Positions 43,841 through 44,990 of a DNA stretch of 64,000 nucleotides are shown here, piece after piece (position 1 is the first letter of the stretch; the number at the start of each line of letters is the position of its first letter). Below the pieces are notes generated by a model, which had not been told where the DNA came from, did no database searches, and saw only the letters and a program-made list of their open reading frames with translations. This DNA comes from Paracoccaceae bacterium (GTDB lineage: Bacteria; Pseudomonadota; Alphaproteobacteria; Rhodobacterales; Rhodobacteraceae): positions 172,546-236,545 of the forward strand of contig CACPBQ010000001.1 in the NCBI GenBank assembly GCA_902632125.1, in the 5' to 3' direction. The position numbers and the translations under genes are program-made.

Positions 43841-43919
43841 TGTATACTACTGAGCACAAAATTAACCTATTAATTTCATTTAAAAAATTATGTATACTAT
43901 TGTATTTGTTGACTTTTTA
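43841..43919 (+). repeat. Inverted regulatory repeat, left copy
   Basis: This 79-base segment is matched in inverted orientation by 44603-44681. The inner 29 bases are identical (TGTATACTATTGTATTTGTTGACTTTTTA; 30 counting one flanking base), and the outer 18 agree at 15 positions (TGTATACTACTGAGCACA). In both copies two GTATAC boxes are exactly 50 bases apart. It holds a TATACT -10-like hexamer and a TTGACT -35-like hexamer ahead of the gene at 43978. Confidence 0.85.
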
Positions 43920-43977
43920 TTCAGTTCTTTTGTATGACTTTAATCATTATTCGATAAATTTTTTAAAAGAAATTCAA

Positions 43978-44235
43978 ATGTCAAAACCAAATACTGAATT
44001 TACTTTAGGATTGCGCGATATTGATCTTATTGAAGAGGCTATTAATTGTGTTATAGCTCGTAGATCTTCCGAATTAGCTCAATTGGCAGCGGCATCCTCC
44101 AAAGAACCGACAGACATGGCTGGATACCGTGAAACACGAAAAGAAGTTGATGAACTTCGCGATTTGTTAGGCCGTCTACACAATCAGAAAAATTGGTATC
44201 GCCCAAAAAGTGAAGCTGTGTACGTTAGCGGATAA
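43978..44235 (+). CDS. Small soluble hypothetical protein under the inverted-repeat promoter
   Basis: 85 residues from MSKPNTEFTLGLRDIDLIEE. Mostly helical (INCVIARRSSELAQLAAA, ETRKEVDELRDLLGRLH). The ORF track starts 138 bases earlier, inside the repeat, which is unlikely; AAAAGAAA before ATG 43978 is a weak ribosome site. No family recognised. It converges with the zinc-ribbon gene pair on the other strand, which has the same upstream sequence. Confidence 0.7.
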   Translation: MSKPNTEFTLGLRDIDLIEEAINCVIARRSSELAQLAAASSKEPTDMAGYRETRKEVDELRDLLGRLHNQKNWYRPKSEAVYVSG

Positions 44236-44245
44236 CTTAATCTGT

Positions 44246-44389
44246 CTATAGATCGTCTGCCAATTGGTTGTACAAGTATAATAGAACAAAAATAGCTAGA
44301 CAAATAGAACCGAAAGCTCCGACTAACAAAAGAGTTTCGATTTGGGCTACACTAAAATTTGGGCCAAAAATTTGTTTCCAAGTGACCAT
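44246..44389 (-). CDS. 47-residue single-span membrane protein (absent from ORF track)
   Basis: The minus strand reads MVTWKQIFGPNFSVAQIETL followed by LLVGAFGSICLAIFVLLYLY and a short charged tail. Its ATG begins one base after the stop of the zinc-ribbon gene (TAGCATG), so translation is probably coupled. One transmembrane helix; function unknown. Confidence 0.6.
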   Translation of the reverse strand: MVTWKQIFGPNFSVAQIETLLLVGAFGSICLAIFVLLYLYNQLADDL

Positions 44390-44390
44390 G

Positions 44391-44579
44391 CTAAGTTCCA
44401 AATAACAGGTTTATGTTTAAGATTACCACGCTAAGCGACAAAAAAGTAGTTGCCAGTAAGGTCGGCATGCCAACAGAAATATCTTTCACATTAAAGCTTT
44501 TAAAAGCCTCTCCGCAGCTGAAACATTTTTCAGCCAACGCACTATGAACTACTTTGCATTTTTCACATTCTTTAGACAT
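44391..44579 (-). CDS. Small zinc-ribbon membrane protein
   Basis: 62 residues. An N-terminal CxxC...CxxC zinc ribbon (CEKCKVVHSALAEKCFSCGE) is followed by a single hydrophobic helix (PTLLATTFLSLSVVILNINLLF). Zinc-ribbon plus membrane-anchor proteins of this size are often regulators or assembly factors; none is identified here. Its upstream region is the inverted twin of that of the 43978 gene. Confidence 0.7.
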   Translation of the reverse strand: MSKECEKCKVVHSALAEKCFSCGEAFKSFNVKDISVGMPTLLATTFLSLSVVILNINLLFGT

Positions 44580-44602
44580 TACTCTTATTTAATTGTGTTT
44601 TC

Positions 44603-44681
44603 TAAAAAGTCAACAAATACAATAGTATACATTAATTTACTCGAAAAAATAAGCACTTACAGATGTGTTCATTGGTATACA
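44603..44681 (-). repeat. Inverted regulatory repeat, right copy
   Basis: The inverted counterpart of 43841-43919. The inner 29 bases are identical; the middle has diverged but kept its exact length, and the outer TGTATACCAATGAACACA is similar. It is placed 23 bases before the ATG of the 44391-44579 gene on the minus strand. Conservation of length and ends with a drifted middle argues for selected protein-binding sites rather than a recent duplication. Confidence 0.85.
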
Positions 44682-44733: not shown

Positions 44734-44779
44734 GGGTCTCTAATCGGCTCAACAGGGAGGAAAAAGCTATTAGAGACCC
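44734..44779. other. Long-stem hairpin with GGGAGGA in its loop
   Basis: GGGTCTCTAAT (44734-44744) pairs exactly with ATTAGAGACCC (44769-44779). The loop holds CAACAGGGAGGAAAAA, and the palindrome CCCGCGGG follows nearby. It is not behind a recognised gene. It may be a small RNA or a terminator for an unseen transcript. From here to 44990 I see no gene. Confidence 0.4.
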
Positions 44780-44990
44780 AGTACCCGCGGGGTTAATATC
44801 CTAGTAAAGGCATTTTTTATGCCAACTTGAAATTTTATTGCCTTTTCATAAGTAAGATATCTTGCAAACTTTAAATAATTTAAATTAAAATTATTCCAAA
44901 ATTATTGCCACGTAGACGCTTTCAATCAGATTTATAAATTGATTATTTGACAATTAAAGAATACTCGATCTCTCCAGAAATTCTATAAAT

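Follow-up and report, generated by a model that had tools for sequence, protein, structure and literature searches.

Organization of the locus

The window (the whole 64,000-nucleotide stretch that was analyzed) carries two inverted copies of a 79-base region at positions 43841-44681, and each copy faces inward, one toward the gene of an 85-aa protein and the other toward an operon coding for a zinc-ribbon membrane protein and its single-transmembrane (TM) partner (Table 1). The ATG of the partner gene lies 1 nt past the stop codon of the zinc-ribbon gene, and the two opposing gene sets are convergent, their stop codons lying 10 nt apart, an interval in which no terminator is listed.

The inverted relationship described in the earlier note holds on direct reading of the sequence and is far beyond chance. 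The inner 29 bases at 43891-43919 are the reverse complement of 44603-44631 at 29 of 29 positions, the outer 18 (43841-43858 against the reverse complement of 44664-44681) match at 15 of 18 with mismatches at positions 8, 10, and 14, and both copies are 79 bp long with GTATAC boxes starting 50 bp apart. A repeat search of the window returns the inner arms of the pair as 36 nt with 94% complementarity, and the 23-mer core GTATACYATTGTATTTRTTGACT occurs twice in the window against 0 occurrences expected from the shuffled window. In the source assembly (1.9 Mb, 70.6% complete), the core is present only at these two places, even with up to 3 mismatches allowed.

Table 1. Genes and predicted regulatory features of the locus, in window positions ("outside matrix" denotes the operator matrix built from other genera only)
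Feature	Position	Strand	Basis
Operator A of 85-aa gene, GTATACTACTGAGCAC	43842..43857	+	Outside matrix 10.4 bits, rank 4
Operator B of 85-aa gene, GTATACTATTGTATTT	43892..43907	+	Outside-matrix rank 2; core invariant in genus
-35 TTGACT of 85-aa gene	43909..43914	+	Separated from operator B by 1 bp; unchanged in every genus copy
Candidate -10 TATGAC of 85-aa gene	43933..43938	+	Spacer 18; inferred
85-aa protein gene, LLGRLHNQKxWYRP family, predicted helical hairpin	43978..44235	+	Orthologs in other genera
47-aa single-TM partner gene	44246..44389	-	Accompanies zinc-ribbon gene in clades 1 and 2
62-aa zinc-ribbon (CxxC...CxxC) single-TM protein gene	44391..44579	-	Alignment of homologs
Candidate -10 TAAATA of zinc-ribbon operon	44586..44591	-	Spacer 16
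-35 TTGACT of zinc-ribbon operon	44608..44613	-	Invariant
Operator B of zinc-ribbon operon, GTATACTATTGTATTT	44615..44630	-	Outside-matrix rank 2; invariant core
Operator A of zinc-ribbon operon, GTATACCAATGAACAC	44665..44680	-	Best outside-matrix match in window, 17.3 bits

None of the small proteins has a Pfam or NCBIfam family above cut-off; the 85-aa protein has no Pfam family, and the zinc-ribbon protein has only sub-threshold matches to Pfam zinc ribbons. Orthologs of the 85-aa protein are found in 46 of the 396 genera sampled (E ≤ 0.001), its model is a helical hairpin (pLDDT 74) with no significant match among PDB structures, and a composite query returned no member of the family in plasmid records.

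Read from the sequence, each 79-base copy is a promoter module with two 16-bp predicted operators exactly 50 bp apart, organized as box A, box B at +50, one base, TTGACT as the -35, and a candidate -10. In clade 1 (clades are described below), the seven further orthologs of the 85-aa gene have TATTTT, TATTCT, or TACAAT as candidate -10, also with a spacer of 18. Zinc-ribbon orthologs have a TA at spacer 16 in 12 of 12 cases and an ATG 28 to 29 nt past TTGACT in 12 of 12, which places the transcription start at or next to the ATG, and the zinc-ribbon mRNA would thus be leaderless. The right half of box B (GTATTT; TATTTR) departs from the dyad consensus and is identical and invariant at every locus, a deviation that would be left unexplained if B is a plain operator copy; our guess is that this half overlaps another function near the -35. 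The -10-like TATACY inside B was considered as a promoter and rejected, as there is no -35 at 17 bp upstream.

A separate feature at 44734-44780 is a strong minus-strand hairpin (GGGTCTCTAAT...ATTAGAGACCC) that has CCTCCC in its loop and T6 after it on that strand. The part adjoining the zinc-ribbon A box is present in all clade-1 relatives, and the hairpin could either terminate the 44991-45470 gene or be a small RNA whose loop resembles an anti-Shine-Dalgarno sequence.

Distribution of the modules within the genus

The core GTATACYATTGTATTTRTTGACT is present in 30 copies in 14 of 16 congeneric genomes, each with 0 mismatches in a search allowing up to 3 and each upstream of a gene, whereas identity over the entire locus is only 69 to 72% among relatives. 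Exact matches to the 23-mer pattern are found in 25 stretches of the GTDB 85k-species set, and where the contigs correspond, these are the same congeneric genomes, titled marine Rhodobacteraceae MAGs and SAGs. There is no match outside the genus among these 85k species, nor in 2.9 M viral contigs. One genus locus (L072; PBHH01000021.1) is on a contig labelled Gammaproteobacteria, probably a mislabelled MAG.

The modules precede three classes of targets: the 85-aa gene, the zinc-ribbon/TM operon, and, in clade 2, a gene coding for an ABC-type substrate-binding protein, a name that reflects resemblance to binding proteins for branched-chain amino acids, there being no NCBIfam match. At two clade-2 loci (L066 and L083) the module-bearing substrate-binding gene is directly 3' of a 926-aa formate-dehydrogenase-like gene, named by eye. 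The 85-aa gene and the zinc-ribbon operon converge in the eight genomes of clade 1, as they do in the window, and in clade 2 (G003, G006, G008, G009, G011, and G012) they are far apart, with differing neighbors and the same sites kept. The proposal in the earlier note that convergent transcripts are under one regulator thus stands as to shared control and fails as to any need for convergence: the arrangement is incidental, and the regulation does not hinge on overlapping transcripts.

With the matrix from other genera, a strong A box is found exactly 50 bp upstream of B in 22 of the 30 genus modules, including 12/12 zinc-ribbon, 8/8 clade-1 85-aa, and 2/5 substrate-binding modules; the clade-2 85-aa modules and three substrate-binding modules either lack A or have it in decayed form.

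A dyad common to other Rhodobacteraceae

Boxes A and B are, by sequence comparison, local forms of a predicted family-wide dyad, GTATAC-N4-GTATAC (consensus GTATACNAWTGNATAC). At 10 of 12 positions or better, this dyad lies 5' of the 85-aa gene at 24 of 46 loci, one of which is from this genus, against 0.2 expected in shuffles; at roughly half of the 85-aa orthologs no site can be recognized. The spacer peak is sharp at 4 bp, with any other spacer from 0 to 12 giving 6 loci or fewer. The distance from the dyad to TTGACT at the 85-aa genes of L130, L137, L144, and L145 is that of B in the window, and the monomeric icd of L104 and L106 has the same operator-to-TTGACT geometry. In genus G215, the one other genus recovered when the family was searched for such sites, sites within 3 mismatches are located 5' of the 85-aa homolog and of one zinc-ribbon homolog, and both of its two zinc-ribbon homologs are 3' of like sites. 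Many other genera (L130, L126, L125, L144, L145, and others) have a second dyad, approximately GTTTCCNATCGGAAAC, just 5' of the start codon of the 85-aa ortholog; it is absent in this genus and could be an operator or an RNA hairpin.

When all 64 kb of the window are scanned with a matrix trained on other genera only, the four boxes take ranks 1, 2, 2, and 4; as a caution, GTATAC as the seed was taken from the window itself, and the spacer and center were learned elsewhere. In 1.59 Mb of G288, whose own 85-aa site was excluded from training, the 85-aa gene site ranks first and gltA fourth. The best three matches in 0.4 Mb of G269, with its icd letters excluded from training, are 5' of a glyceraldehyde-3-phosphate dehydrogenase-like gene (with a 16-mer identical to a training site), monomeric icd, and gltA. 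No obvious regulator gene lies 3' of the top sites in these two scans.

Predicted TCA-cycle targets

Across 28 genomes, the consensus GTATACNAWTGNATAC with at most one mismatch has 80 matches, compared with 14 for a reversed-pattern control. A TCA-cycle gene is 3' of the site at 28 of the 65 loci examined (acnA, 10; dimeric icd, 7; monomeric icd, 3; fumC, 3; gltA, 3; sucC, 1; and acnB, 1), and three further sites are inside monomeric icd; the chance expectation is about 0.3 by our own estimate (approximately 7 genes in ∼3,500, in either direction). The loci come partly from genomes positive for the 85-aa protein, which should not bias them toward TCA genes. Seven of eight representative proteins checked against NCBIfam are the named TCA enzymes, and the icd targets are of two unrelated types, dimeric and monomeric. 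The sites at two fumC genes (L185 and L212) adjoin the start codons.

The only regulator genes seen at strong sites are three FCD-type GntR genes (L172, L199, and L210), each with a GTATCC/GGATAC variant of the site; as a search for autoregulation, this gives a weak hint that the regulator could have an FCD-type GntR fold. Strong dyads in two genera (L174 and L200) are directly followed by the gene of an undescribed 79-aa small protein (ISGCDAQFNHLL...PTPRT). The gltA-associated site of L175, L183, and G288:C14:368274 is located within the upstream neighboring open reading frame, about 0.3 kb before gltA, and that frame codes for a 464- to 467-aa tRNA-synthetase-like protein.

In the genus of the window, 5 of 5 clade-2 genomes have GTATACAATTGTGTAC (or GTGCAC) at acnA, 107 bp 5' of the matched start. 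No acnA gene was seen in clade 1, and dimeric icd was not found in this genus; the TCA link of clade 1 is therefore through monomeric icd. Monomeric icd is present in 11 genomes of both clades, and the operator-like GTATACAATTGTAGAC lies within its codons in 11 of 11, free of synonymous variation (loci L229-L239 and L197). Of its 517 codon columns 50 are invariant; six of these form a single run at the operator, and no other run exceeds two. G215 icd has identical operator letters; at this place the protein reads YTIVD, against YTKVD or YTTVD in other genera.

Proposed regulation and alternatives

We propose, with a probability of about 0.78, that the 79-base copies are modules of one regulon whose putative common regulator also acts on TCA-cycle genes. 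Relative to the shared regulator of the earlier note, which is by far the best reading, this proposal adds the two-operator module, the operator common to TCA-cycle genes, and the copy embedded in icd codons. Sites, spacing, targets, and constraint are read directly from the genomes as predicted features, and we infer from sequence that a single protein acts on all of the dyads. One dimeric DNA-binding regulator would recognize GTATAC-N4-GTATAC and would bind paired sites separated by five helical turns, at the 85-aa gene in clade 1 and at the zinc-ribbon/TM operon in both clades, with A as the strong site and B as a weaker one abutting the -35 box. The same regulator would act in this genus on acnA (clade 2) and, via the site in its codons, on icd, and elsewhere in the Rhodobacteraceae on acnA, icd, gltA, fumC, sucC, acnB, and the 85-aa gene. 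It is mildly favored as mainly a repressor, because sites are 5' of the -35, near start codons, and inside icd, and because TTGACT is near consensus; a central-carbon metabolite might relieve or tune repression, and A and B might bind cooperatively. As judged from their shared operators, the small proteins are probably under common control with central carbon metabolism, and they are probably accessory factors produced in step with TCA flux. A bolder version, which we hold tentatively and at somewhat less than even odds, is that a family-wide TCA regulator also controls both small proteins as effectors that adjust respiration or TCA enzymes, and that in this genus the icd site moved into the coding sequence and now constrains its codons.

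Repression has a close rival in activation through the same operator, with B, near -45, in the class II position and A, near -95, in the class I position of a tandem arrangement. The constant placement of B directly next to the -35 with A five turns upstream, the poor candidate -10 boxes, and the 50-bp spacing, which suits tandem activators as known in general from CRP promoters, all speak for activation, but the invariant, near-consensus -35 and the sites at fumC start codons, inside icd, and inside the gene 5' of gltA suit repression better, and we consider activation possible at roughly one chance in three. Considerably less probable is a genus-specific regulator of the 23-mer that has no relation to the TCA operator, with the resemblance to the dyad due to convergence. 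It would fit the invariant TATTTR half of B, which is off the dyad, and the restriction of the exact 23-mer to one genus; however, the A boxes score 10 to 18 bits with the outside matrix, the 85-aa orthologs of L130, L137, L144, and L145 have a canonical dyad at the same TTGACT distance, and G215 has intermediate forms.

Conservation at the RNA level, as a transcribed 5' leader or by antisense pairing, would suit the very strict sequence and the overlapping RNAs that converging genes could yield, yet B precedes the -35 box and is thus probably untranscribed, A and B fit a DNA dyad, there is no Rfam match, and the sites are retained where the genes are unlinked, making an RNA element very improbable. 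Least credible of all is a MITE-like element with the two copies as terminal inverted repeats around the two genes. The copies do enclose about 0.7 kb, but both window copies point into genes, clade 2 has single copies before unlinked genes that include the unrelated ABC substrate-binding class, and the repeat is seen in neither other GTDB species nor viral contigs. The mobile-repeat outcome that the earlier note named as contrary to its proposal is not what is found: there are 2 to 3 copies per genome, each 5' of a gene and unlinked in the sister clade, and no multicopy insertion with target duplications is seen.

Significance and comparison with known systems

An odd inverted repeat becomes a defined bait, namely, a short and strictly conserved operator with known targets, and the protein that binds it would be a TCA-cycle regulator of an abundant marine family, one that had at least one central-carbon motif without an assigned factor in 2015. 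Two orphan small-protein families gain physiological context, and the icd site is a clear predicted case of an operator embedded in the codons of an essential enzyme.

The module is reminiscent of CRP class III promoters, which have tandem activator dimer sites about 50 bp apart with the nearer one by the -35; the comparison is one of how the promoters work, as the site sequence differs from the dyad. Two known carbon regulators were considered for the operator and rejected. CceR, a LacI-type carbon regulator, likewise has a central-carbon regulon in Rhodobacteraceae, but its predicted site, [AGT]GTT-N6-8-AAC[ACT], is unlike the counted dyad consensus. AkgR, a GntR-type TCA activator of R. sphaeroides, is also a regulator of TCA genes in the same family, but its reported site contains GTGATCAC (PMC6365646), which is unlike the counted consensus, and its predicted targets are sucCD, sdh, and 2-oxoglutarate dehydrogenase rather than acn, icd, gltA, and fumC as for the dyad.

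The closest likeness is to cluster 62 of R. sphaeroides (Imam et al. 2015, PMC4344238), described in the portion of that report concerning it as a set of central-carbon genes with a predicted common inverted-repeat motif and an "as yet unidentified TF." It includes two Icd genes, citrate synthase, malyl-CoA lyase, and Nuo, and icd and gltA are also dyad targets here in several genera; that portion makes no mention of small-protein targets, an A/B pair, or an icd-internal site. Compared by target genes alone, the cluster 62 motif may be the GTATAC-N4-GTATAC operator.
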